Below, piece after piece: positions 609 to 35,118 of a DNA stretch of 35,118 nucleotides; the stretch's first letter is position 1; the number at the start of each line of letters is the position of its first letter. The position numbers and the translations under genes are program-made. The notes under the pieces are model-generated. The model was not told the origin of the DNA. It did not search any database and worked only from the letters and a program-made list of their open reading frames with translations. The DNA is from a virus, in IMG/VR virus record IMGVR_UViG_3300030430_004029, positions 1-35,118 of that record. One strand, given 5' to 3'.

Positions 609-620
609 CATAAATACCAT
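609..620 (+). promoter_or_regulatory. T4-type late promoter (CATAAATACCAT)
   Basis: The 12-mer CATAAATACCAT matches the T4 late consensus TATAAATA at seven of eight positions. The identical 12-mer recurs at 1649-1660 (+) and 32481-32492 (-), each time immediately before a gene. Expected transcription start is about 622, leaving a 14-base leader that contains AGGAG ahead of the ATG at 636. Confidence 0.8.
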
Positions 621-635
621 GTGCAGGAGAAACGC

Positions 636-1631
636 ATGGAATATCGTCAGTATCAAAATCTCACCGAGACGTATCTCAATGAAGTCAATGAAGATACGAA
701 ACAAAATTTAGATGAGGTCGCATTACCAGTGAATCTTGCTCTATTGGCAGCAAGAGCAGCCCAAATGTCACCAAAACTTTCAAAAGTATTAAAAGTTCTG
801 GGTGGGACTGAATTGGCTGCCTACGGCAGTGCGGCCGCAGATGAATTTGAGGGTGAAGGCACGCCGCAAAAACCTGGCGATGATTATGATGGTGATGGTA
901 TTCGAAACTCATTAGACAGCGATGATGATAATGATGGTGTTCTTGATGTGGATGACGATAATCAGTATGGTGGGCTTGGTTCACAACAAGTAGGAAAAAG
1001 AAAAATAGGCGGTGTTCCTAATCCACTCGATCCCGTGATAAGAGCGTCAGAAAAAATATTCGTAGACTATCCAACTGATGCAATCGAATATCTCGTCAAT
1101 TTATTTTCAGAAGATTTTGAAAATGAAGAGAAAAAACATTTGAATGAGGTGGCAATACTACCACTATTAATACCACTTGCCGCTAAATTAGGTATCACAG
1201 GAACAACTCTCGGTACGGCAGGTATATTGTCGGGATCTATGATGGGTGGTGCTGATAGAATACTCTCAAAATCACAACAAAAGGCTGATAGACAAAAGCA
1301 AGACAATATTGACGCTGTAAACGCAAAAGTTTTTAATAGTGGTCAACTGCAAGATGTTGAGACAATCAATTCAGTCTTAGATCTTATCGGTGGAACAGAG
1401 GGTATGAATGTGGCCGTGCTTGATTCACCATATGACACACTCGTAGGAATCACAACCGTCGAAGATTTGTATAATTGGTTGACAAATAACGGTATTACCA
1501 TAACTGGACTCTACGCTTATCTCATGCAAATGTTGGGGGCTGAAGGTGGGCCAAATCTTGTGCAGATGGCAGAGCGAGATGCTATTGGCTTCTTGAGATC
1601 TAACCCAGATCTGTTTAACGATTCACCATAA
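636..1631 (+). CDS. Probable virion protein with thrombospondin type 3-like calcium-binding repeats
   Basis: This 331-residue protein was not matched to a named family. The ATG at 636 is preferred over the in-frame GTG at 621 because AGGAG (625-629) fits it. Residues about 83-108 are a run of Asp-rich loops (DYDGDGIRNSLDSDDDNDG) typical of thrombospondin type 3 calcium-binding repeats. The N terminus ends in a LNE (residues 14-16) that fits the LxE cleavage rule of the T4 gp21 prohead protease. Two later segments, LDEVALP and LNEVAILP, each precede an Ala/Leu-rich hydrophobic stretch. A late promoter lies just upstream, which agrees with a structural role. Head-internal or tail-associated location is inference. 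Confidence 0.55.
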   Translation: MEYRQYQNLTETYLNEVNEDTKQNLDEVALPVNLALLAARAAQMSPKLSKVLKVLGGTELAAYGSAAADEFEGEGTPQKPGDDYDGDGIRNSLDSDDDNDGVLDVDDDNQYGGLGSQQVGKRKIGGVPNPLDPVIRASEKIFVDYPTDAIEYLVNLFSEDFENEEKKHLNEVAILPLLIPLAAKLGITGTTLGTAGILSGSMMGGADRILSKSQQKADRQKQDNIDAVNAKVFNSGQLQDVETINSVLDLIGGTEGMNVAVLDSPYDTLVGITTVEDLYNWLTNNGITITGLYAYLMQMLGAEGGPNLVQMAERDAIGFLRSNPDLFNDSP

Positions 1632-4405: not shown

Positions 4406-5439
4406 AAGTTGCAATCATCACCGATACGCATTTTGGTGCGAGAGGTGACTCGCCTGTTTTTCTAGAGCATTTTCTAAACTTTTTTGAGAGCGAGTTCTTT
4501 CCGTATCTCAAAGAGCATGATATCAAACACGTTATTCATATGGGTGACCTTATGGATCGTCGTAAGTTTGTAAACTTTTTGACACTGAAAAATGTTCGTG
4601 ATCGCTTTGTGCAAAGAATCATAGATGAGAACATTAGCACACATATCATAATTGGTAACCATGATATCTACTTTCGAAACACCAATGATGTAAACTCTGT
4701 TGAGCAACTTTTTGATGGTGATAGCGAGTTTGTAAAGTTCTACGCAGAACCAACGACAATAGAAATTGATGGTAAAAAACTTGATCTATTACCATGGATC
4801 AATCGTGGCAATAAAGAGGTAACATTAGACTTTTTGAGAAACACAACTTCGCACGTTTGTTTTGGGCACCTAGAAATCACAGGACACTTGATGTTGCCTG
4901 GTGTAAAATGTGAGGGTGGTCTTGATCCAAAGTTCTTCAAGAAATACAAGAAGGTTTATAGTGGTCACTTTCACACCAAAAGTAGTGACAAAAATGTGTC
5001 GTATCTTGGCACAGCCTATCAAATCACCTTCAGCGATTGGGGCATTGAAAAAGGTTTTCATATTTTTGACACCGAGACTTACGAGTGTGAATTTATTGAA
5101 AACAAAAAAGAAATCTTTCACAAGATAGTCTATGATAATAAACCAACTAAAGATGTAAACTTTGATAAACTCAAAAATTGTTATGTCAAGGTCATCGTGA
5201 CCAAAAAAGATGAGGTCACAAAGTTTGAAAAATTCTTAGATAAACTCTATGATTCTGGTGTAGAAGATGTTACCATCGTAGAGCAGGATGAATCATATGA
5301 ACCGAGTGAAGACGAGATTGACATCTCTGTGGACACAATCACACTCATAGAGGATGAAATAGATTCACAAGAGGTAAAATTTAAAGAAGAGATCAAAAAA
5401 CTAGCGAAAGAGATATACCTAGAAAGCATTGATGAATGA
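4402..5439 (+). CDS. 47: gp47 recombination nuclease subunit (Mre11/SbcD-like)
   Basis: This 345-residue calcineurin-like metallophosphoesterase (T4 gp47 has 339) is the nuclease half of the gp46/gp47 complex, which resects double-strand ends and helps degrade host DNA. All family metal-binding motifs are visible: DTH (residues 8-10), GDLMDR (48-53), GNHD (85-88), GH (155-156) and GHFH (188-191). It overlaps gp55 by ATGA at its start and gp46 by four bases at its end, so the three are probably co-translated. The acidic C-terminal tail is unremarkable for the family. Confidence 0.93.
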   Translation: MKVAIITDTHFGARGDSPVFLEHFLNFFESEFFPYLKEHDIKHVIHMGDLMDRRKFVNFLTLKNVRDRFVQRIIDENISTHIIIGNHDIYFRNTNDVNSVEQLFDGDSEFVKFYAEPTTIEIDGKKLDLLPWINRGNKEVTLDFLRNTTSHVCFGHLEITGHLMLPGVKCEGGLDPKFFKKYKKVYSGHFHTKSSDKNVSYLGTAYQITFSDWGIEKGFHIFDTETYECEFIENKKEIFHKIVYDNKPTKDVNFDKLKNCYVKVIVTKKDEVTKFEKFLDKLYDSGVEDVTIVEQDESYEPSEDEIDISVDTITLIEDEIDSQEVKFKEEIKKLAKEIYLESIDE

Positions 5440-8793: not shown

Positions 8794-9852
8794 ATGACAA
8801 ATTTACTTTCGTCTATGGTCAAAGCATCTGGTAATGATTTTGCCACTGTTGTCAATGAGGGCATTGAGTCAGATGTGAGAGGTTTTGTTGATACTGGATC
8901 GTATGCTTTCAACGCACTACTTTCAGGATCAATCTATGGTGGTATGCCAGACAACAAGATTCTTGCTATCGCTGGCGAGTCTGCAACTGGTAAAACTTTT
9001 TTCACTATCAGTGTGGTAGAGAAGTTTTTGAATGACAACCCTGATGGTGTTGTTTTGTATTTTGATAGCGAGCAAGCCGTCACATCTGAGATGCTTACTT
9101 CAAGAGGTGTCGATGCAAAACGAATCGCTGTGTTTCCCGTGTCTACGGTTGAGGACTTTAGACACCAATGTATTCAGATCGTAGACAACTATCGTGAGTT
9201 GCCAAAGAGTGAGCAGAAGCCTATGCTTGTTGTTCTTGATTCCTTGGGTATGCTTTCAACGATCAAAGAGATGACAGACACCGCAGAGGGCAAGAATGTT
9301 CGTGATATGACTAGGGCCCAAGTGGTCAAGTCTACGTTCAGAACCTTGACGCTCAAACTTGGTGCTGCTGGTATTCCTTTGATCATGACAAATCACACCT
9401 ACAAGGTTGTTGGTTCTATGTTCCCAACATCTGAAATGGGTGGTGGTACAGGCTTGAAGTATGCTGCATCTACGATTGTGTATCTCTCAAAGAAGAAAGT
9501 GAAAGAGGGTACCGATGTGATCGGTAATATCATTCACTGTAAACTTTACAAAGGTCGCTTGACAAAAGAAAACTCAATGGTTGATGTTCTGTTGAATTAT
9601 GAGACTGGTGTGAATCCATATTATGGTCTGCTCGATATCGCACTCAAGCATGGCATCGTGAAGAAGTCATCAACTCGTTTTGAGTTTCCTGATGGGTCAA
9701 AGGCTTTTGAGAAGAGTGTCTACAAAGACCCTGAAAAATATTTTACAGACGATATCATGAAACAACTTGATGAAGCCTGTAAAAAAGAATTCTTGTATGG
9801 CTCTTCTGTTGAAGAGGATAACACAGCCACGCTAGAGGTAGTGGACGAGTGA
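8794..9852 (+). CDS. uvsX: UvsX RecA-like recombinase
   Basis: This 352-residue protein (T4 UvsX has 391) is the phage strand-exchange recombinase, working with UvsY, gp32 and gp41. Walker A is GESATGKT (residues 61-68), Walker B is MLVVLDSLG, and the ITMTNHTYK/GGGTGLKYAAS region matches RecA/UvsX L1-L2 and the segment after it. The C terminus is acidic, as in RecA proteins. A strong ribosome-binding site and promoter lie upstream. The stop overlaps the GTG start of the first sugar gene, coupling the sugar cassette to a core replication gene. Confidence 0.93.
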   Translation: MTNLLSSMVKASGNDFATVVNEGIESDVRGFVDTGSYAFNALLSGSIYGGMPDNKILAIAGESATGKTFFTISVVEKFLNDNPDGVVLYFDSEQAVTSEMLTSRGVDAKRIAVFPVSTVEDFRHQCIQIVDNYRELPKSEQKPMLVVLDSLGMLSTIKEMTDTAEGKNVRDMTRAQVVKSTFRTLTLKLGAAGIPLIMTNHTYKVVGSMFPTSEMGGGTGLKYAASTIVYLSKKKVKEGTDVIGNIIHCKLYKGRLTKENSMVDVLLNYETGVNPYYGLLDIALKHGIVKKSSTRFEFPDGSKAFEKSVYKDPEKYFTDDIMKQLDEACKKEFLYGSSVEEDNTATLEVVDE

Positions 9853-16067: not shown

Positions 16068-16897
16068 GATATTTGATTCTTGGTTCTGAGGGGCAAATTG
16101 GTGGTCACCTTCAGGACTATCTCAGAAGTAAGGGACATTCGGTCACCGAGTTTGACATAGAGATTACGAGTGATCACGATCTTCGTAAACAAAACAACAA
16201 AGAACTTTATCATGCATTGAAGTATGCAGACTTTGTTTTCTTTTTGGCTTTTGATGTTGGTGGTTCAAGATATTTGAAAAAGTATCAAGAGACCTTTGAG
16301 TTTTATAGAAACAATATGATGATCATGTCGAATACGTTTGAGCAGTTGAGAAACAAAAAGGTGCCTTTCATATTCACATCTACGCAAATGAGCAAGATGG
16401 ATTTCTCTGCCTATGGTAGACTCAAAAGACTTGGTGAACAATGCACAAAACATTTGGGTGGTGTCATCGTGAGTCTGTGGAATGTTTATGGTTTTGAAAA
16501 AGATCCTAACAGCGAAAAGAACCATGTTCTCTCTGATTTTGTTCGTATGGCAAAAGAGGGTGAGATAAAAATGTTGACTGATGGCGAAGAGTCAAGAGAT
16601 CTCTTACACGCCGATGATTGTTGTGAGGCACTATACACTTTATCACAAAACTATGACACGATAGACAGAGATAAGAACCTTCATGTCTATTATGGTAAAT
16701 GGACAAAGATCATAGACCTAGCAAACATGATTGCAAAATATGTTCCTTGCAAAGTCACACCATCAAAAGATATTGATAGTGTTCAGAACTCTATGCAGGT
16801 AGAGACAGATGACTACATCAAAAAGTATTGGCAACCAAAAATTGATCTAGAGGCAGGTATCAAAAATATTTGTGAGAAAACATACGCCGATGCGTGA
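16064..16897 (+). CDS. NAD-dependent epimerase/dehydratase (extended SDR)
   Basis: This 277-residue protein has an N-terminal LGSEGQIGGHL Rossmann motif, STQMSKM in the catalytic Ser/Thr position and YGRLK as the Y-x3-K pair. LWNVYGFE and SRDLLHADDC are the usual SDR nucleotide-sugar motifs. The ATG at 16064 (ATGA overlap) is preferred to GTG 16049. The substrate is not predictable; 4-epimerisation or 4-keto reduction (for example a GDP-fucose synthase-like step) are both possible. It precedes the GT29-like gene. Confidence 0.72.
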   Translation: MRYLILGSEGQIGGHLQDYLRSKGHSVTEFDIEITSDHDLRKQNNKELYHALKYADFVFFLAFDVGGSRYLKKYQETFEFYRNNMMIMSNTFEQLRNKKVPFIFTSTQMSKMDFSAYGRLKRLGEQCTKHLGGVIVSLWNVYGFEKDPNSEKNHVLSDFVRMAKEGEIKMLTDGEESRDLLHADDCCEALYTLSQNYDTIDRDKNLHVYYGKWTKIIDLANMIAKYVPCKVTPSKDIDSVQNSMQVETDDYIKKYWQPKIDLEAGIKNICEKTYADA

Positions 16898-17597
16898 ACT
16901 TGATAAGTTTCTAAATGGAAAAAGAGTTGCTCTTGTAGGACCATCACCACACCTATTGAATACAAACTCTGGCACCCTCATAGATCAGTATGATGTCGTT
17001 GCCCGTGTCAATTATTTTCAAACACCTAATGATGTAAAGAAAGACTACGGTTCAAGAACAGATTTAATGTTTCATAATTTTGCCACACCATGGATTCCTG
17101 CCCTAGGTGAATTGATTGATAAACACAGTGACGACTATGACAACGTGAAATTTTTAGCGTGCCCTGTCATCAAGGGTGGTCACGGTGATAACATAACAAC
17201 ATGGTCACCAGATCATGTGAGTGTTGTGGTAAAAAATGCAGAGAGTATTAATAAAAACAATGTGCCTTTCGAGTGGATTGGTGTGTCTGATTATATGAAA
17301 ATATACAATCATTTGGGTTGCGAGCCATACTCTGGTTCTATGGCGATATCAATGTTATTGTCTGCACCGATTGAAAAACTTTTTATCACTGGTTACACAT
17401 TCTACCGAGGTGCAAAAACACCATCTGACATTTACTTTGATGGTTATAAAACAGAGGGTCACAAAAATAGAATGCCTGGTCATGCGGGTGACGCAGAAAA
17501 AAAATCGTTTGAATACTTTTTAGAACTTTACAAAAGCAATTCTGATCGTATAATTGTAGATGAAAAATTATCCGAGATAATAGAAAGTGAATCATGA
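16890..17597 (+). CDS. GT29-type sialyltransferase-like protein
   Basis: This 235-residue protein resembles GT29 sialyltransferases. Residues about 13-40 contain ALVGPSPHLL, NSGTLIDQYD and VVARVN, the L-motif arrangement that binds CMP-sialic acid. YSGSMAISMLL at 147-157 fits the S-motif, and HAGDAE (198-203) fits the Hx4E VS-motif. The ATG at 16890 is chosen over GTG 16872; it overlaps the previous gene by 8 bases. Directly downstream lie nanE, neuB and neuA homologues, which would make the donor. No membrane anchor is seen, unlike the Golgi enzymes. GT29-like bacterial proteins may use other CMP-nonulosonates. Confidence 0.7.
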   Translation: MRELDKFLNGKRVALVGPSPHLLNTNSGTLIDQYDVVARVNYFQTPNDVKKDYGSRTDLMFHNFATPWIPALGELIDKHSDDYDNVKFLACPVIKGGHGDNITTWSPDHVSVVVKNAESINKNNVPFEWIGVSDYMKIYNHLGCEPYSGSMAISMLLSAPIEKLFITGYTFYRGAKTPSDIYFDGYKTEGHKNRMPGHAGDAEKKSFEYFLELYKSNSDRIIVDEKLSEIIESES

Positions 17598-18223
17598 ATA
17601 TACCAAAAGGGTTGATAGTTTCTTGTCAAATAGAACCTGGTAGTAGTTTCGCATGGCAAGATGTTTACAAGTTTGCAAACGAGGCGATACGAGGTGGTTG
17701 TGTGGCGTTAAGAATCAGGGGTTGTGCCTCTGTCTATGAGGTAAGAAAACGAGTAGATCATCCTATTATTGGCCTGACTAAAGGTGAGCATGAAGATGGC
17801 ACCGTTTGTATTACACCATCTTTTGTTGATGCGATGAGTCTTGTAGAGTCTGGTGCAGATTACGTCGCCGTTGATGCGACTGGTCGATCTGGTTACGGGC
17901 ATATCAAAAGAATGCATGAAGAAGGTGTAAAGTTGATCGGTGACGTTTCAAATTTTGATCAGGCACAGTCTGCCATTGAAAGTGGCTGTGAGTGTCTTAC
18001 AACGACACTAAGTGGTTACACAAAAGACTGTGAATACAGTGAAGAACCTGATTATAAATTATTAGAGGAATTAGTTTCTACGAACATCCCTATTTTAGCA
18101 GAGGGTAGATATTGGGAAAGATCACAAGTCAAGAAAGCATTTGATCTTGGAGCCCATGCCGTAGTTGTTGGTTCAGCGATAACAAGACCACATTTGATAA
18201 CAGAGAGGCTGTGTGTATTATGA
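17594..18223 (+). CDS. nanE: N-acetylmannosamine-6-phosphate 2-epimerase (NanE-like)
   Basis: This 209-residue TIM-barrel protein is close to the usual NanE size (about 220-230). The motif series is clear: HPIIGLTKGE (catalytic Lys region), ADYVAVDATGRSG, then IPILAEGRYW and VVVGSAITRPHLIT at the phosphate-binding end. NanE interconverts ManNAc-6-P and GlcNAc-6-P, normally in sialic acid breakdown. Here it stands beside biosynthetic genes, so it more likely supplies ManNAc-6-P from the host GlcNAc-6-P pool. Overlaps of four bases link it to the GT29-like gene and neuB. Confidence 0.85.
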   Translation: MNIPKGLIVSCQIEPGSSFAWQDVYKFANEAIRGGCVALRIRGCASVYEVRKRVDHPIIGLTKGEHEDGTVCITPSFVDAMSLVESGADYVAVDATGRSGYGHIKRMHEEGVKLIGDVSNFDQAQSAIESGCECLTTTLSGYTKDCEYSEEPDYKLLEELVSTNIPILAEGRYWERSQVKKAFDLGAHAVVVGSAITRPHLITERLCVL

Positions 18224-19065
18224 AAGCAAACGTGATTGCTGAAATTGGTATCAATCATCAAGGTGACTTAAATCTCATGAAAGAGATGATGTTGATCGCA
18301 AAACGTTGTGGTGCTGATTATGCGAAAGGGCAGAAACGTGAACCAAAACTATGCCTGACAAAAGAGCAGTATGAAAAGCCATATGATAGCCCGAATAGTT
18401 TTGGTAAAACTTACGGTGAGCATAAAGAAGCCCTAGAGTTTTCAAAAGATCAATGGAAAGAGTTGTTTGACTATGCACAAGAGATTGACATAAAATTATT
18501 TGCGAGCGTATTTGATGAGGCTAGTGCCGAATTGATGTTTGATCTTGGGGCTGACCTATTTAAAATAGGCTCGGCTGAGGTAAACAAACATGAGTTGTTA
18601 AAGGTTATTCGATCATTCAACAAACCTATCATCCTCTCTACTGGTATGTCAACCATTGAAGAGATAGATGCCGCAGTTGATTGTTTGACTGGCTCTGAGT
18701 TGACGATCATGCACTGTACCTCTGCGTACCCATGTAAAGAAGAAGATGTCAATCTAAACGTGCTGAAAACTCTCAAGAATAGGTACTATCACAAAAGAAC
18801 AAATATCGGTCTGAGTGGTCATTACATTCAAGGTAGTGGTGCAATTGAGTGTGCCGCGATGGGTCTTGGTGCAACTTGGTTTGAAAGGCACTTCACTCTT
18901 GACAGAACAATGAAAGGATCAGATCAATCATCTTCTCTTGAACCTACAGGGCTAGAGAGAGTTATCAAATCTATCCGAAGCGTTGAGAAGGCGATGGGTA
19001 AAGCAGAAAAGACCATTTTAGATTGTGAGATTCCTGCTCGAAATAAATTCAAAGGAGACTTATGA
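18220..19065 (+). CDS. neuB: NeuB-family sialic/nonulosonic acid synthase, lacking the SAF domain
   Basis: This 281-residue protein carries the complete NeuB barrel, which condenses phosphoenolpyruvate with ManNAc (or ManNAc-6-P). Motifs in order: AEIGINHQGDL, LSTGMST, MHCTSAYPC, NVLKTLK, IGLSGHY and ERHFTLDRTMKGSDQ. It ends shortly after the barrel, whereas ordinary NeuB proteins (~350 aa) add a C-terminal SAF/antifreeze-like domain that closes the partner's active site. The ATG at 18220 overlaps the nanE stop. Legionaminate or pseudaminate synthases share this fold, so the exact product is not fixed by sequence alone. Confidence 0.85.
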   Translation: MKANVIAEIGINHQGDLNLMKEMMLIAKRCGADYAKGQKREPKLCLTKEQYEKPYDSPNSFGKTYGEHKEALEFSKDQWKELFDYAQEIDIKLFASVFDEASAELMFDLGADLFKIGSAEVNKHELLKVIRSFNKPIILSTGMSTIEEIDAAVDCLTGSELTIMHCTSAYPCKEEDVNLNVLKTLKNRYYHKRTNIGLSGHYIQGSGAIECAAMGLGATWFERHFTLDRTMKGSDQSSSLEPTGLERVIKSIRSVEKAMGKAEKTILDCEIPARNKFKGDL

Positions 19066-19838
19066 CCGCGTTAAATATTGGAGCAAACTCTTTTCGTGAA
19101 GATGGGTGGTTAAATTTAGATCACCCATCAACTCGCTATTCTGGTGAGCAGGCAAAAATAGATGTGCCTCATGATTTGATGAGTGGTGAGGCAATCGCAT
19201 TAGGTGATAATACTCTTACGGCCGCTTATACATCACATACCATTGAGCATATTTCTGATCAGTATGTAGAGCAAACATTCAAAGAGGTTTACAGAATGTT
19301 AGAACCTGATGGTGTTTTTCGCGTGACATGTCCTGATAGTGATAGACTCTACAAAGCATATGTGAATGGCGACAAAGAGTATCTTACAAGTTGGGTGTTT
19401 CCACACCCTGATGGTAGACAACAATTCTTTCGTTCATTTGGTTTGGGTGAACAATTAGTTTTTATTGTGGCAAGTAATATGTCACCATACTCAAAAAGAA
19501 ATCCTGATCTGGCACGTATCACTGAAGGTATCGAGGTCTTTCAAGAACCTGAGATTGAGAATATTCTTAAAACAAAGAGCAAAGAAGACGCTCTGACTTT
19601 TTTCACCGATGCATGTCAAGAAAGAGCCTTACATTTACAGAAACAAATTCCTGGTAATCATGTTAGTTGGTGGAACTTCGAGAAGATAAAAAACATCATG
19701 GAAAAAGTTGGTTTCAAAGACGCACATAAAAAGAAATATAACGAATCTGATTATGAAATTTTTAAGAATTTTGATGAGAAAAATAAAGACAGTGTTGCAC
19801 AAAAACATTATAGTGTTTTTGTAGAGGCAAAAAAGTGA
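19062..19838 (+). CDS. SAM-dependent methyltransferase
   Basis: This 258-residue protein is a class I methyltransferase of the Methyltransf_11 type. LNIGANSFREDGWLNLD is the SAM-binding first strand and loop, YTSHTIEHISD the motif with acidic/His residues after strand 3, and EVYRMLEPDGVFRVTCPD the post-I region. The acceptor is unknown. Its place between neuB and neuA, with four-base overlaps on both sides, raises the possibility of sugar O-methylation, perhaps of the sialic acid itself. Confidence 0.72.
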   Translation: MTALNIGANSFREDGWLNLDHPSTRYSGEQAKIDVPHDLMSGEAIALGDNTLTAAYTSHTIEHISDQYVEQTFKEVYRMLEPDGVFRVTCPDSDRLYKAYVNGDKEYLTSWVFPHPDGRQQFFRSFGLGEQLVFIVASNMSPYSKRNPDLARITEGIEVFQEPEIENILKTKSKEDALTFFTDACQERALHLQKQIPGNHVSWWNFEKIKNIMEKVGFKDAHKKKYNESDYEIFKNFDEKNKDSVAQKHYSVFVEAKK

Positions 19839-20467
19839 AAGTGATCATACCCGCGAGGGGCGGTTCAAAAAGAATACCAAACAAGAACATCAAAGAACTA
19901 AATGGAAAGCCACTCATATCTTATGCGATAGAGACTTCCCTTTCAGTCGCCGATGATGTTTTTGTCAGCACAGACTCAGTTGAAATCGCTGATGTCGCAG
20001 AGAGATATGGCGCCTTTGTTGTAAAAAGACCAGGTCATCTGGCGACCGACATATCGAGAACAGAGGATTCGATTGAGCATTTCTTAGATATTGTTGATGG
20101 TGTGAATGAGTTTGCTTGTGTTCAGGCGACAACACCTATGTTGACAGGTGAAGACTTGAAAAGTGGTTTTGATACTTTGAGAGAACATGACTATGACAGT
20201 GTGATTTCTGTGGTTGAAAGGGCTGAGTATCTGTGGGATCACACCAACAAACCAATAAACTTTACGCGATATGGCCGACCAAGAACACAAAAACTTTCTA
20301 AAACATTTTCAGAAAATGGTGCTTTCTACGTCACAACAAAAAAGTCATTTGAGAAAAATAAATGTTTGTATGATGGGTTAGTTGGCTTTGTGGTGATGAG
20401 TGAACTTTCATCTTTAGAAATAGATACCGAAGAAGATTGGAATCTGGTGAGCAAATGTATGAGTTGA
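19835..20467 (+). CDS. neuA: CMP-N-acetylneuraminate cytidylyltransferase (NeuA-like)
   Basis: This 210-residue enzyme activates sialic acid (or a related nonulosonate) with CTP. The N-terminal IPARGGSKRIPNKNI is the diagnostic CMP-sugar synthetase motif, followed by VSTDSVEIADVAERYGA, a QATTPML segment and a C-terminal LEIDTEEDW metal-binding motif. Length is typical for a single-domain NeuA. It starts at a GTG overlapping the methyltransferase stop and ends inside the start of the CMAH-like gene. Confidence 0.87.
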   Translation: MKVIIPARGGSKRIPNKNIKELNGKPLISYAIETSLSVADDVFVSTDSVEIADVAERYGAFVVKRPGHLATDISRTEDSIEHFLDIVDGVNEFACVQATTPMLTGEDLKSGFDTLREHDYDSVISVVERAEYLWDHTNKPINFTRYGRPRTQKLSKTFSENGAFYVTTKKSFEKNKCLYDGLVGFVVMSELSSLEIDTEEDWNLVSKCMS

Positions 20468-22227
20468 TAAATGTGAGTGATGTTCAATGTCCACACCTGG
20501 TGAACATACAAGGTGACTCTTTCTATATCGTTCAAGATGAAAATTCATACCAACTTCTATCAACGACATGCCCACACCAAGGTGCTAAGGTTGATCTATG
20601 TGATGACTCTTTTGTTTGTCCTGTTCATCAGTGGAAGTTTGACTTGAGCGGTGAGTGCATGAACATAAAGAACCAAACACTATTCAAAACAGAACTGGTC
20701 AATAAAGATAATAAATTATTCGTCGATCTAAAAAAGTTAAACACCACAATCGAGAGAAGATTCAAGTCTGAAAAATCATCAGACATTGACATAGACTTCA
20801 AGGTTCATGCTCATGCTTGCCTAGAGATTGTGCATGAAGGATTCTCAATACTTACAGATCCATGGTTAGACGGGCCAGCATTTTATGGTTCGTGGGCCCA
20901 TCACCCAAAACCAAAAGTAAAGGTGAGCCAGTTAGATCCAGATGTAATATGGATCTCTCATGAACACTCAGATCACTTTCACAAAAATACTTTGATACAA
21001 TTTCCAAGAGAAACTAGGATATACTTTCCTAACTTTGCAAACAAGAGAATTGAAAACGAACTTGTGAAGTTAGGCTTTACTAATCTCACACCAGTTTCTT
21101 TTGGTAAAAGTTATGACATCAATGATAAAATAAAAATCACTTGCTATGAACCCGAGAGTGTTTGGAATGATAGCATCGTTCACATCGACGTTGATGGTTT
21201 CAACATACTGAACATTAATGATGCTGGTGTAAATCATAAGATAAAAAAATATCTACCTCCCATAGACCTTTTGTGTTCGTCATTCTCACCAGGTGCGTCT
21301 GGTTATCCTTTGTGTTGGGACATGACTGATGATGAACAAGACAAATACTATGAGAGAGTGAAACATGGCACGATAGAGATGCTAAGACAAGCCATGAAAA
21401 TGTATCAGGCAAAGTTTCTTTTGCCATTTGCCTCTCACTTTAGACTACAACATCCACGACATGAAGATTATGACCTGAGAGTTGGTAAAAATACTATCAT
21501 GGATGTGAAACAAAAACTTGTTGAACATCAGGTTATCGACATACTACCAGGCGAGTCATGGAATAGTATGAGCGGTAACTTCTTTCGCGTGTACGGTGAA
21601 CAAACTAAACAAAAAATGTATAATGGTCGTAGACACTTTTTCAATCTTGATGAGTTTGCAAAATTTTATCCTGAGCCTTGTGCGGTCGATGTTGGTGAAT
21701 TGCAGAAATACTTGTTGAATCTAAACAACACGCCAGAGATAGTTCATTGTGAAAATATACAAGTGAGACTGAACGGCTGTTTCTTTTACGTTGAAAATGG
21801 TGAGTTATTCATAGGTAAAAAAACAAAACCAAACTTAGAGATAGACGTACCAATTGAGATACTACAACAGATTATCACTAATGATGTTTCTTGGGATGAG
21901 GCACACATCGGGTATTGGTGTAAGATGAAGCGAACTGGTGAATACAATCAAAACTTTTGGAGATTGCTGCAATCCCCATACTACTTGAAACGCGGTAAAA
22001 AAACAGATTGCAAAATTTCAAATATGAATGTGAGTTATCTACTCAAAAAATATCCTGAGACAGATGCCATATTGAGAAGGTATGGTTTGTATTGTTCTTC
22101 GTGTTCTTCCTCGTTCAAGGAAAATGTTTTGCAGGCGATTGAGTATCATGGGTTGTCAGAGCAGGACTCTAAAAAGTTATTCAGAGAACTAAATTTCGTT
22201 CTAAATACTAATGAGGTTTTGTTATGA
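20455..22227 (+). CDS. CMAH-like CMP-sialic acid hydroxylase with extra C-terminal DUF1858-like domain
   Basis: This 590-residue protein has three parts. Residues 1-95 form a Rieske [2Fe-2S] domain with C39-x-H41 and C55-x2-H58. Residues about 115-400 are UlaG-like metallo-beta-lactamase with HEHSDH (169-174), and DPWLDGPAF, GASGYPL and LLPFASHF match the vertebrate CMAH pattern, as does SWDEAHIGYW further on. CMAH converts CMP-Neu5Ac to CMP-Neu5Gc. The last ~70 residues resemble DUF1858 (YPETDAILRRYGLYCSSC), absent from mammalian CMAH as I know it. The ATG at 20455 overlaps neuA, whose product is the expected substrate source. Action on a related CMP-sugar remains possible. Confidence 0.8.
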   Translation: MYELINVSDVQCPHLVNIQGDSFYIVQDENSYQLLSTTCPHQGAKVDLCDDSFVCPVHQWKFDLSGECMNIKNQTLFKTELVNKDNKLFVDLKKLNTTIERRFKSEKSSDIDIDFKVHAHACLEIVHEGFSILTDPWLDGPAFYGSWAHHPKPKVKVSQLDPDVIWISHEHSDHFHKNTLIQFPRETRIYFPNFANKRIENELVKLGFTNLTPVSFGKSYDINDKIKITCYEPESVWNDSIVHIDVDGFNILNINDAGVNHKIKKYLPPIDLLCSSFSPGASGYPLCWDMTDDEQDKYYERVKHGTIEMLRQAMKMYQAKFLLPFASHFRLQHPRHEDYDLRVGKNTIMDVKQKLVEHQVIDILPGESWNSMSGNFFRVYGEQTKQKMYNGRRHFFNLDEFAKFYPEPCAVDVGELQKYLLNLNNTPEIVHCENIQVRLNGCFFYVENGELFIGKKTKPNLEIDVPIEILQQIITNDVSWDEAHIGYWCKMKRTGEYNQNFWRLLQSPYYLKRGKKTDCKISNMNVSYLLKKYPETDAILRRYGLYCSSCSSSFKENVLQAIEYHGLSEQDSKKLFRELNFVLNTNEVLL

Positions 22228-32024: not shown

Positions 32025-32453
32025 TTACTGAGGGGTATAGATAGGCCTTCCGTCTGGACCAGACTTCTTACCGAAGGGGTTGTTTGGATTGAATACATAA
32101 GGATTCCTGAACCGACGCCGCCCTGGGTGAAAACTTTCTTCATGCTCGCCTTCGTGCATACCTTCGTCTTCTTCATGATCCATCTCATGCATACCAGCAC
32201 GAATCATCATGCGGCCGAGTTCTGCAAGAGCCTTCTCGTCCATTTCGTGGGCGCCCTCATGATAGCCTTCATCTTCTTCATGATCCATTTCTTTCATCGC
32301 TTCATGATAGCCAGCCATCAGGCCTCGCTTCATGCCCTCATGATAGCCTTCATCTTCTTCATGGGCACCTTCGTGGACACCAGCATAAAGTTCTTGTAGT
32401 CCTTGATTGAAGCCGGCTTTGTAAGCCTCGCTAAGTTGTTCTCTAAAGTTCAT
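32025..32453 (-). CDS. His/Glu/Asp-rich repeat protein with capsid-targeting-like N terminus
   Basis: This 142-residue protein is not a recognised family. The ATG at 32453 follows AGGAGA and a late promoter; an in-frame TTG at 32474 is discarded. The start MNFREQLSEA fits a T4-type leader ending in LxE. The middle (residues about 25-105) is built from repeats of HEEDEGYHEG/HEEDEGMHEG with GMKRG and GYHEAMK insertions, rich in His, Glu and Asp. The tail is Pro/Asn-rich and basic. Metal binding or a packaged head-internal role are possible. The same HE(E/K)DEG motif occurs in the basic protein at 33246-33740. Confidence 0.6.
   Translation of the reverse strand: MNFREQLSEAYKAGFNQGLQELYAGVHEGAHEEDEGYHEGMKRGLMAGYHEAMKEMDHEEDEGYHEGAHEMDEKALAELGRMMIRAGMHEMDHEEDEGMHEGEHEESFHPGRRRFRNPYVFNPNNPFGKKSGPDGRPIYTPQ
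32253..32363 (-). repeat. 30-bp direct repeat inside the His/Glu-rich gene
   Basis: Exact 30-bp copies lie at 32253-32282 and 32334-32363 (period 81 bp) and encode the HEEDEGYHEG unit twice. Further partial copies surround them. The period is a multiple of three, so the reading frame is kept. Confidence 0.8.
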
Positions 32454-32480: not shown

Positions 32481-32492
32481 ATGGTATTTATG
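32481..32492 (-). promoter_or_regulatory. T4-type late promoter (CATAAATACCAT)
   Basis: This is the third exact copy of the 12-mer, on the - strand. Predicted start is about 32479, giving a leader of about 26 bases with AGGAGA before the ATG at 32453. Confidence 0.8.
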
Positions 32493-32495
32493 TTT

Positions 32496-32897
32496 TTAGA
32501 TGGTTATAATTTCGATCTCTTTTCGTATGGGTAGCATATCGCCAAGTTTGATACCAAGACTATCTGCTGTACCAAAAGGAAACTCAATCGCAAACTTGAG
32601 AGGTCCATCTATAAAGTGTTCTGTGTTCATGCTCTTTGTTCTGGGATGAAACATATGCGAGATGTCAAAGACAGTGCCGTTTCGATCCATTGATACGATG
32701 TCCATGTCCATCTTACAGTTTTTCATCGTGAAGATCTTGCTGCCTTCATCGGGAAAAGAGAATAGCATACCATGATTCTTGGGTAGGCCAGTGCGATGCA
32801 TGAGTCCGACTTGTCTCTTTGATGGTGAAGCAGCGATCTCTAGCATCACTGGTTGACCACCGATCTCTATTTGTAGTCGCCGAAGACCCTCAAACAT
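32496..32897 (-). CDS. DUF192-family protein
   Basis: This 133-residue protein matches DUF192: VGLMHRTGLPKNHGMLFSFPDEG, then FTMKNCKMDMDIVSMDRNGTV, the family's MxNTxxpLDixfid pattern, and a C-terminal GTADSLGIKLGDML like the usual GtaerlgIkvGDkv. The function is unknown; bacterial members are often secreted, but no signal peptide is seen here. It starts three bases after the stop of the upstream gene, and the next late promoter begins just beyond its stop. Confidence 0.82.
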   Translation of the reverse strand: MFEGLRRLQIEIGGQPVMLEIAASPSKRQVGLMHRTGLPKNHGMLFSFPDEGSKIFTMKNCKMDMDIVSMDRNGTVFDISHMFHPRTKSMNTEHFIDGPLKFAIEFPFGTADSLGIKLGDMLPIRKEIEIITI

Positions 32898-33245: not shown

Positions 33246-33740
33246 TTATCGTCGGGATTCTCTAAGTGCCGCTTCAACACCACGAACATATGCTTCAGCG
33301 TAGGCTTCGCAATGGCTCTCTTTCTTAGAACGACTTGTTTTTAGACGCAGATCTTGCTTTGATCGCAGCCTGCGATCCGGTTTGACGGGGCGCATAGGAC
33401 TTAGTTCTTTCAGATGCTTGCCTTCTTTCTTGGAGTGCATACCTTCTTTCTTAGAATGCATACCCTCTTTCTTGGAGTGCATACCTTCTTTCTTAGAATG
33501 CATACCCTCATCTTTTTCATGAGCGCCTTCAAAACTTCTACGCTTTTTCTTTTTACCTGGACCTTGCAAACCACCACCTGTACGAGGCTTGCTAGATTTA
33601 GCAGCCACTCTCGAATCTGGTTGTCTCATTTTTGGTGACTTATCACCAAAACCAGTATACTCTGGCGTTCTCTTCTCTTCAAGGTTGCCCTTCAAGGCTT
33701 CTCTTTGCTCAAAGAGCATTTCTCGTTGTCTCCAATGCAT
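33246..33740 (-). CDS. Highly basic protein with EGMHSKK tandem repeats
   Basis: This 164-residue protein is strongly positively charged (Lys/Arg-rich throughout). Residues about 70-107 contain GAHEKDEGMH followed by four tandem EGMHSKK units. Flanking parts are Lys/Arg/Ser-rich (GPGKKKKRRSFEG, RLRSKQDLRLKTSRSKK), and the tail YAEAYVRGVEAALRESRR is helical. AGGAGA precedes ATG 33740, and a late promoter lies upstream. Its composition suggests nucleic acid binding, for example a DNA-associated head protein; that is inference. No named family is recognised. Confidence 0.6.
   Translation of the reverse strand: MHWRQREMLFEQREALKGNLEEKRTPEYTGFGDKSPKMRQPDSRVAAKSSKPRTGGGLQGPGKKKKRRSFEGAHEKDEGMHSKKEGMHSKKEGMHSKKEGMHSKKEGKHLKELSPMRPVKPDRRLRSKQDLRLKTSRSKKESHCEAYAEAYVRGVEAALRESRR
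33421..33504 (-). repeat. Four tandem 21-bp repeats in the basic protein gene
   Basis: Four head-to-tail 21-bp units (33421, 33442, 33463, 33484). Units 2 and 4 are identical, units 1 and 3 differ at one base, and the two types alternate, so there is also a 42-bp period. They encode EGMHSKK in frame. Confidence 0.9.
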
Positions 33741-33760: not shown

Positions 33761-33776
33761 TCAGTATTTATTTATG
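33761..33776 (-). promoter_or_regulatory. Late-type promoter of the basic protein gene
   Basis: In - orientation the sequence reads CATAAATAAATACTGA. The AATAAATACTGA part is close to T4 TATAAATACTA. It overlaps the stop codon of the upstream gene and precedes AGGAGA and ATG 33740. Confidence 0.6.
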
Positions 33777-34203
33777 GGTTTAGTGGTGTTGTAGAGGCAG
33801 ATCCTGACTGTGTTGCAGAACTCTGTGTGCCAAGAATACCGAGAAGTCCTGCGAGTGGTAGGGTAAATCTGTTTCGACCCAATCTTCTCGCTATATTTCT
33901 AATAATTTTGGCTCTTTGTGAAGGACTTCTGGCACTTGAATTTGCGATTGCTATTAACGCATCGGTCTCTGCACGAAGTTTTTTAATCCTAGGCAAAAAC
34001 TCATCAGGCACAATGGTTATACCGGTGTCGTTTTGCCATCTCACCATGTCTATGAAGTCGGCGTCAGACATCGTACGAACATAATCAGACCATATATTTA
34101 AAGCCTCTCGACTAAAAGGTGCAGCACCTGCCTGCTGCTCAATCTGTCTACGAAGCATTTGCCAATGTCCATCTTCACTTAGATATTGCTTGAACCTTTT
34201 CAT
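33772..34203 (-). CDS. Putative head-associated protein with capsid-targeting-like leader
   Basis: This 143-residue protein starts MKRFKQYLSED, which shares the MKxFxxYLxE leader with its two upstream neighbours. The LSE at residues 8-10 fits the gp21-type LxE cleavage rule. The body is mostly helical, with basic stretches (KIIRNIARRLGRNRF) and an Ala/Leu/Gly segment followed by a Ser/Thr/Gln-rich tail. No family is recognised. AAGGAAG precedes the ATG, which overlaps the upstream stop (ATGA). Confidence 0.55.
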   Translation of the reverse strand: MKRFKQYLSEDGHWQMLRRQIEQQAGAAPFSREALNIWSDYVRTMSDADFIDMVRWQNDTGITIVPDEFLPRIKKLRAETDALIAIANSSARSPSQRAKIIRNIARRLGRNRFTLPLAGLLGILGTQSSATQSGSASTTPLNP

Positions 34204-34397
34204 TTGTCTTCCTTGTCGTATTTTCTTTTTGCCATCTGTGTCGCAACGGCATACATCACACCCTTGCCGTCCTCTTTGCCATATCTTCGCTCAAAGTCTT
34301 TGAGTTTTGGTTTGAGTTTTTTGACATACTTCTCACGATACTTGAGTTCTGTTTTCGTGAGTTTTCTCTCATCTAGATATTCGATAAATGATTTCAT
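34200..34397 (-). CDS. Small conserved T4-like phage protein with capsid-targeting-like leader
   Basis: This 65-residue basic protein starts MKSFIEYLDER. The remainder (TKTELKYREKYVKKLK, FERRYGKEDGKGVMYAVATQMAKRK) resembles short hypothetical proteins I recall in cyanophages and related marine T4-like phages (LTKxELKxRE... VMYATATxMAKK). LDE at 8-10 fits LxE cleavage. Its role is unknown; a virion or head-internal location is inferred from the leader. Four-base overlaps join it to both neighbours. Confidence 0.65.
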   Translation of the reverse strand: MKSFIEYLDERKLTKTELKYREKYVKKLKPKLKDFERRYGKEDGKGVMYAVATQMAKRKYDKEDK

Positions 34398-34600
34398 CCA
34401 CCGCCCTTTGCAATCATAATGGCTGCCATGTAGTCATTCGCATCTTTTTTATTTTTGTAAACCTTCTTGAGTTCTTTGCGATGCTTGCCTGTTTTAGTTA
34501 GCACACGTTTGCCATCTTTTTTCATATCAGCGTAGACACCCCATCTACCGTCAGGCATCTTTCTCACATCTTCATTAAGATATTCGATAAATGATTTCAT
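34394..34600 (-). CDS. Small basic protein with capsid-targeting-like leader
   Basis: This 68-residue protein has the same first eight residues as the previous gene (MKSFIEYL), followed by NED. The body RWGVYADMKKDGKRVLTKTGKHRKELK is Lys-rich and ends in a small Ala/Gly tail. LNE at 8-10 fits LxE cleavage. No family is recognised. It overlaps both neighbours by four bases. Confidence 0.6.
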   Translation of the reverse strand: MKSFIEYLNEDVRKMPDGRWGVYADMKKDGKRVLTKTGKHRKELKKVYKNKKDANDYMAAIMIAKGGG

Positions 34601-35118
34601 TTGAACACTTTTACGATTTGCCCAGTTTTATTTTCGATAGCGATTGTGGTGTTAGGCATTTTTTCAGCCAGTTCTTTGACGATAGCAGGCAACATCTTTG
34701 CAAACTTCGTTGACTCTTGATGAATTACTTTTTTGTTCTTCATCACAACCACTGTGAATGGTCCGTCTGCATCACCAAGACCACTCACGATCTTTCTTGC
34801 AGTAGGTAGTTTTTTCTCTTCGAGTTTCATCACCTTATTCATTGCCTTGAGTAAGTCTTTAGGTTTGAATTTGTGAACGTTGTCTGCTCTTGCTTCGTAG
34901 TCACCATAGCCACTAAGGTTCATGTCATTCAGAACACCTGCAATCTCTTGCTTGGCTTTCTTGTTCAATCCCTTGATCATGCCTTGTATGTCACGGGCTG
35001 CTATTGCTTCATCGAGTTGCACATCTTCTTTCAAAGTTCCCGAAATCTTGAAGCCAGTTTTCTTTTGGAACATTCCACCAAAGGCATTATCAAGTTTTTT
35101 CTTTGCAAGTTTAACAAA
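34597..35118 (-). CDS. Unassigned late-region protein, 5' end beyond the window
   Basis: The frame is open from ATG 35073 through to the right edge, adding 15 residues (FVKLAKKKLDNAFGG), so the real start is probably off the window and the methionine at 35073 is likely internal. At least 173 residues are present. The C-terminal ~60 residues have alternating strands (PFTVVVMKNKKVIHQ, NTTIAIENKTGQIVKVFK). TLKE and QLDE near the visible start also fit LxE sites. No family is recognised. Confidence 0.55.
   Translation of the reverse strand, partial: FVKLAKKKLDNAFGGMFQKKTGFKISGTLKEDVQLDEAIAARDIQGMIKGLNKKAKQEIAGVLNDMNLSGYGDYEARADNVHKFKPKDLLKAMNKVMKLEEKKLPTARKIVSGLGDADGPFTVVVMKNKKVIHQESTKFAKMLPAIVKELAEKMPNTTIAIENKTGQIVKVFK

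Follow-up and report, generated by a model that had tools for sequence, protein, structure and literature searches.

A marine T4-like virus very probably runs an expanded version of the T4-type capsid-targeting system, in which short N-terminal leaders on differing proteins would serve for entry into the prohead and then be cut off by gp21. The window, by which we mean the whole stretch of DNA analysed here, is a 35,118-base IMG/VR virus record of a marine T4-like myovirus. It holds uvsY (158) and uvsX (8794), together with genes that we take, from their translations as read, to be uvsW (1667), gp46/gp47-like genes and a gp41-like helicase (28721). Judged by UvsX, the isolates closest to it are HTVC008M, Melnitz and cyanophages (about 57–61%), and its left end begins just past the head genes. 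For comparison we used related contigs that hold more leader genes (G001, G002, G021–G025 and G029), where G021 nearly duplicates part of G001 and is not independent of it. These contigs are metagenome fragments, so that leader-gene counts per genome are lower bounds; start codons were picked by rule. The analysis lists, from sequence alone, a large candidate head payload in a marine group, assigns to each protein a predicted cleavage site and puts forward a second tag as a candidate; the head contents of marine T4-like phages thereby become testable by proteomics.

Three adjacent genes share a T4-like leader

The initial annotation had drawn attention to consecutive minus-strand genes starting MKSFIEYLNE, MKSFIEYLDE and MKRFKQYLSE, and all three were recovered as described (leader 1):

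34597..35073, minus strand: 158-aa ORF, first gene of the coupled operon, matching the C-terminal part of a 415-aa G001 protein
34394..34600, minus strand: leader-1 gene, 68 aa, MKSFIEYLNE (34571–34600), basic body of pI 10.1
34200..34397, minus strand: leader-1 gene, 65 aa, MKSFIEYLDE (34368–34397), basic body of pI 10.0
33772..34203, minus strand: leader-1 gene, 143 aa, MKRFKQYLSE (34174–34203), basic body of pI 10.7

Each leader-1 start codon overlaps the preceding stop by 4 bp (ATGA), and the ORF at 34597–35073 is coupled to them likewise, forming one operon. A scan of the genome for MKxFxxYLxE-type starts, proposed in the same annotation, returned exactly these three places in the record and no others. 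Searches of Pfam and PHROG gave no family with a convincing E-value for any of the three bodies, and likewise showed no homology of the mature bodies to the T4 internal protein families. In G001, the homologue of the 34394–34600 protein starts MLSFIEYLEE and that of the 33772–34203 protein MKNFKEYLEE. Among isolates, no relatives of the 34394–34600 protein were found and the 34200–34397 body gave weak partial matches only; the latter contains a YGxxxGKxVMYAxATxMAK module, which has relatives in genes just upstream of gp21 in three head-region loci, L253, L267 and L272 (weak, E 0.003–0.05).

In T4, the ten N-terminal residues of IPIII are enough to bring about uptake into the head, targeting depends mainly on residues 4 and 7 and processing on residues 8 and 10, gp21 cleaves after L/I-x-E, and a T4-type capsid-targeting sequence (CTS) is defined as an N-terminal propeptide of 10–19 residues that ends in L/I-x-E (PMC9026906). 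All three leaders in the window end at residue 10, as YLNE, YLDE and YLSE, a length within this range, and F4, Y7, L8 and E10 are present in 3/3, at the positions where T4 has Y4, F7, I8 and E10. The suggested resemblance to a T4 CTS cut by gp21 thus extends to the four positions tied to function by experiment, and leader 1 passes every feature of a T4 CTS that can be checked at the sequence level. The pattern M..[FY]..[FY][LI].E occurs at 3 of the 48 N-termini in the window, whereas 3 of 2,444 distinct ones fit it in other marine T4-like contigs; it is found at 4/77 N-termini in G001 and 4/38 in G022, and T4, the positive control, has it at 3/266 (two MKTYQEFIAE proteins and one small ORF). 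At the internal rate of 5.7e-5 per position the binomial p is about 3e-9, uncorrected for motif choice, and the leader pattern was absent from 100 dinucleotide shuffles.

A 368-aa protein in G002 (L096, 5035–6141) carries a natural leader 1 with Asp at position 10 (MKKFFNYLTD). As Asp at this position in T4 permits targeting and blocks cleavage (PMC9026906), this protein may be packaged uncut.

A second leader class on many unrelated bodies

The shared-leader set singled out in the initial annotation is real, but its extent had been underestimated, as relatives have at least a dozen genes of this kind and, in addition, another class of leader. This leader 2 has the form ...KEAYxxGYxxALxE and as a rule spans 21–26 residues. 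Among G001 N-termini, 61 pairs score 42 or more, against 0 mid-protein pairs and 4 C-terminal pairs; isolates show no comparable excess of similar N-terminus pairs. The leader-1 cluster comprises MKSFLEYLTE, MKTFLEYLNE, MLSFIEYLEE and four MKSFKRFLxE/MKSFLQYLKE genes in G022, and the leader-2 cluster MTPEQRQMIKEAYQEGYYQALDE, MNFRQQLQEAYEAGYRSGLNE and kin, with 12 in G001. Related contigs have up to 12 leader-2 genes each, mostly on unrelated bodies: similarity between bodies was seen in 8/325 leader-2 pairs (26 proteins) and in just 8/91 leader-1 pairs (14 proteins), the latter all orthologues or one paralogue group, in agreement with the earlier view that only the leader is common. For 55 leader proteins, neither PADLOC nor NCBIfam returned a convincing match.

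The leader-2 motif is N-terminal in 30 of 33 cases; it was not found in T4 or four marine isolates, and a search among isolates gave no credible match. Same-residue codon pairs of the leader-2 copies in G001 differ silently in 109/347 cases, indicating that the peptide itself is what is kept. The 34200–34397 body was found behind three leaders, MKSFIEYLDE, MKTFLEYLNE and MNLKSFKDHFNE↓ACW..., showing that bodies move between leaders. Almost every member has LxE at the end of its leader. G001, G002, G022 and G029 show an excess of N-terminal LxE (odds ratios 2.1–4.5; p between 5e-3 and 4e-7 over the two size classes), as does, weakly, the window (odds ratio 2.1, p 0.016, in proteins shorter than 420 aa). 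No genome-wide enrichment of this kind was seen in T4 or in four marine isolates; because T4 itself lacks it, its absence from other phages does not exclude single CTS genes there.

Leader 2 is longer than any T4 CTS and follows another pattern, falling outside the T4 criterion (10–19 residues; aromatic 4 and 7, L/I 8, E 10). Although it ends in LxE, we therefore do not class it as a T4 CTS and propose only that it works like one. The chances are even that leader 2 is an independent capsid-targeting signal that docks to the core, is cut by gp21 and, in a clade of uncultured marine T4-like phages, fills heads with a dozen or more unrelated cargoes, lysozyme-like and calcium-loop proteins among them.

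Prohead protease and head genes linked to the leaders

The window record itself lacks gp21, which was reached by contig overlaps through uvsW, gp23 and gp22. L302 shares 7,355 bp with the window at 99.7% and extends back via gp3 and gp23 into gp22; L475 overlaps L302 at 98.2%, and L474 overlaps L302 at 94.3% and the left end of the window directly at 93.9% over 625 bp. Both L475 and L474 contain gp22, gp23 and a gp21 that matches PF03420 at E about 3e-39 or better, and L475 has in addition gp17 to gp20 and small genes before gp21; gp20-gp21-gp22-gp23 is thus present in contigs joined to the window by direct or chained overlap. The initial annotation had proposed looking for a gp21 homologue and counted a genome with no prohead protease as evidence against packaged head proteins; that objection does not apply, the homologue lying in contigs that overlap, directly or in chain, at 94–99.7%. 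From these contigs, which represent the same or a near-identical virus, we infer that the virus of the window has gp21. Among 20 contigs chosen by UvsX, gp21 was found in one, because these contigs are fragments.

Leaders and head genes are linked in several ways. First, gp23 of the window's virus reads ...LLENQERYLKE↓AAPVN, a predicted pro-site with the same YLxE as the leaders; the Pfam Gp23 domain starts only downstream of the predicted YLKE↓A site, and P3 is Leu at 102 of 113 gp23 sites predicted by alignment in the wider set. Second, G029 (66 kb) bears both leader classes plus gp21, with one leader-2 gene between gp20 and gp21 and another, for which no isolate relatives were found, directly after gp23. 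Linkage of leader 2 to prohead genes was also seen across 241 head-region loci around gp23 or uvsW (2,890 genes), where 6/6 leader-2 genes flank gp23 or precede gp21. Third, the leader-2 protein at 32025–32453 of the window holds a 16-residue repeat, VHEGAHEEDEGYHEGM, that recurs unchanged in gp22 of L473, the two coding stretches differing by six silent codons; L473 is 92.7% identical to L302, which begins beyond this part of gp22. The HEEDEGYHEG-repeat gp22 scaffold of near-identical viruses lies at 4668–6047 in L473 and at 9389–10774 in L475.

Other leader genes, promoter-like sites and charge

Further genes and promoter-like sites in the window are as follows:

33246..33740, minus strand: encodes 164 aa, start MHWRQREMLFE; very basic (pI 10.3), with MHSKKEG repeats
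32025..32453, minus strand: gene for a 142-aa protein, leader 2 MNFREQLSEAYKAGFNQGLQE (32391–32453), acidic HEEDEGYHEG repeats common to gp22
636..1631, plus strand: located between uvsY and uvsW, encodes 331 aa with a DxDGDG calcium-loop-like stretch, start MEYRQYQNLTETYLNE
33769..33776, minus strand: late-promoter-like CATAAATA, 28 bp before the 33246–33740 gene
32485..32492, minus strand: late-promoter-like CATAAATA, 31 bp before the 32025–32453 gene
609..616, plus strand: late-promoter-like [TC]ATAAATA, 19 bp before the 636–1631 gene

Two of these genes had been described as related in form to the three leader-1 genes. The start at 32453 (MNFREQLSEAYKAGFNQGLQE) and the YLNE at residues 13–16 of the ORF at 636 hold, but the 32453 gene does not belong to the MKxFxxYLxE class and is a member of the second, longer one. 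The 636–1631 protein has no Pfam match. Starts related to that of the 33246–33740 protein occur in G002 (MHWKQRLLLLQE), and this protein bears the leader-2 motif EAYVRGVEAALRE at its C terminus (33258–33296).

All five [TC]ATAAATA sites in the window sit 10–31 bp ahead of gene starts, the position expected of late promoters of the T4 type; only this placing is striking, since no more sites are present than chance would give. Four of the five cargo bodies in the window have a pI of 10 or more against a window median of 5.8, and the 32025–32453 cargo is acidic.

The C-terminal copy of the leader-2 motif in the 33246–33740 protein continues as EAYVRGVEAALRE↓SRR, and a mid-protein copy in L004 (3793–4434) as EAYEAGYESELNE↓G, each as if cleaved there. 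T4 Alt has a C-terminal propeptide (PMC9026906). The acidic HEEDEGYHEG repeats of gp22 and the 32025–32453 protein and the basic MHSKKEG repeats of its neighbour at 33246–33740 could pair by charge. A DUF192 protein (E 2e-24; 32496–32897) lies inside the leader-gene cassette and is kept there in G001.

Candidate cargo proteins in related contigs

In G023, leader 2 stands on a T4-lysozyme-like protein (L153, 96–998; PHROG endolysin 1.5e-7, internal virion lysozyme 5e-5), which scored 0.002 against T4 lysozyme in the PDB and in which Pfam sees no lysozyme domain; its structure model, with a mean pLDDT of 45, was too poor to use. This cargo may act as a lysozyme inside the virion. DxNGDG calcium-loop motifs occur in the four leader-1 proteins of G022.

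A CWxGYKQVGMKKKGxxMVPNCVPE module recurs in L006 (4647–4937), L223 (1097–2851) and L220 (7582–9357), the copy in L223 being in a gene just upstream of gp21. The L006 protein, a relative of the 34200–34397 body that bears this module, matches 336 phage records. Syn9 gp114 shares these modules and, because it is not annotated as structural, was set aside as proof.

Proposed pathway and alternative explanations

Several lines of evidence argue for capsid targeting: F4, Y7, L8 and E10 are kept and gp21 is present in overlapping contigs; the gp23 pro-site YLKE↓A matches the YLxE of the leaders; leaders are shared on differing bodies, bodies move between leaders and N-terminal LxE is enriched; leader-2 genes flank gp21 or gp23, and a 16-mer is identical with gp22; and bodies are basic, one cargo is lysozyme-like and late-promoter-like sites are well placed. 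Against it stand the position of gp21 outside the window record, the prediction of the gp23 sites by alignment, the shortness of the motif, the absence of LxE enrichment from T4, the greater length and different pattern of leader 2 and the one acidic cargo. Under the capsid-targeting reading, the leader genes would be expressed late, and the N-terminal leader (aromatic 4 and 7, L8, E10) would dock to the core that gp22, the scaffold, forms in the prohead. As the shell assembles, it would enclose the leader-bearing protein, and gp21 would then cut after LxE, freeing a mostly basic body inside the head among the DNA; in this clade the second leader class would do likewise for a large further set of unrelated bodies. 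Delivery of the cargo into the host, the least certain part, might equally well happen or not, because some members resemble accessory proteins of the prohead core more closely than effectors for injection.

The latter resemblance leads to a possible, though less likely, explanation, namely that leader proteins enter the prohead as core or scaffold accessories like gp67/gp68 and are consumed and expelled at maturation, being neither retained nor injected. The repeats that the 32025–32453 protein shares with gp22, the likeness of the 34200–34397 module to the end of genes just upstream of gp21 and the leader-2 genes in the gp67/gp68 place in G029 would all suit such a role; a retained payload accounts better for the bodies being so many and so varied, for their scatter away from the head genes and for the lysozyme-like and calcium-loop cargoes. 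It is improbable that the shared leader is a trace of recent duplication or recombination of gene 5′ ends with no targeting role. MKSFIEYL is indeed encoded by identical DNA in two adjacent window genes, but flanks are not shared, the silent differences among leader-2 copies point to a kept peptide, the positions kept are those needed in T4, and leaders recur with other bodies in distinct contigs. Very improbable, too, is that the leader signals something else (attachment to the membrane or the tail, chaperone tagging or binding to the nucleoid). The amphipathic character of the leader-1 peptides, which places them in the top 4–7% of N-termini, would fit, whereas the genes beside gp21 and gp23, the LxE that closes the leaders and the repeat in common with gp22 speak for the head. 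Chance resemblance of short N-termini, to which a ten-residue motif also fitting 3 of 2,444 background N-termini might lend itself, was rejected on the background set and the shuffles (0 matches in 100), given three adjacent genes among 48 and the binomial p.

Relation to known packaging systems

The capsid-targeting reading places the leader proteins closest to the T4 CTS proteins (IPI, IPII, IPIII and Alt), which have the same ten-residue leader (aromatic 4 and 7, L/I 8, E 10), likewise on unrelated, mostly basic small proteins and likewise with a gp21-gp22-gp23 head operon. The set described here differs in that its bodies are unrelated to internal proteins, it has more members per genome and a second leader class, and its genes lie in scattered, putatively late cassettes in an uncultured marine clade. 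Few T4 internal proteins use the CTS, and a review suggests that T4-like phages may take up various others by it (PMC9026906). The T4 gp67/gp68 genes find a parallel in G029, where a leader-2 gene and small LxE-site genes occupy the same place between gp20 and gp21; there is no sequence family match, however, and most leader genes lie far from the head operon. The giant phages phiKZ and SPN3US package a large inner-body or ejection payload that is cut after Glu by a diverged gp21 homologue (PMC9026906), a likeness drawn by literature description only, the virus group here being ordinary T4-like. Marine isolates of the Kyanoviridae (HTVC008M, Melnitz, P-SSM4, Syn9 and S-RIM8) have gp21 and single CTS-like starts (MKKFSAFLKE, MKSYNEFISE) but neither the leader-2 motif nor the expanded set or N-terminal LxE excess. 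Among the open-access papers searched, none dealt with capsid-targeting sequences of marine T4-like phages.

A sialic-acid-like pathway

Separately, the window carries a sialic-acid-like pathway at 16890–22227:

16890: GT29 sialyltransferase-like
17594: NanE-type epimerase
18220: NeuB
19062: methyltransferase
19835: NeuA/PseF-type CMP-sugar cytidylyltransferase
20455: Rieske plus metallo-beta-lactamase-fold protein

The domain order of the last protein recalls that of CMP-sialic acid hydroxylase.
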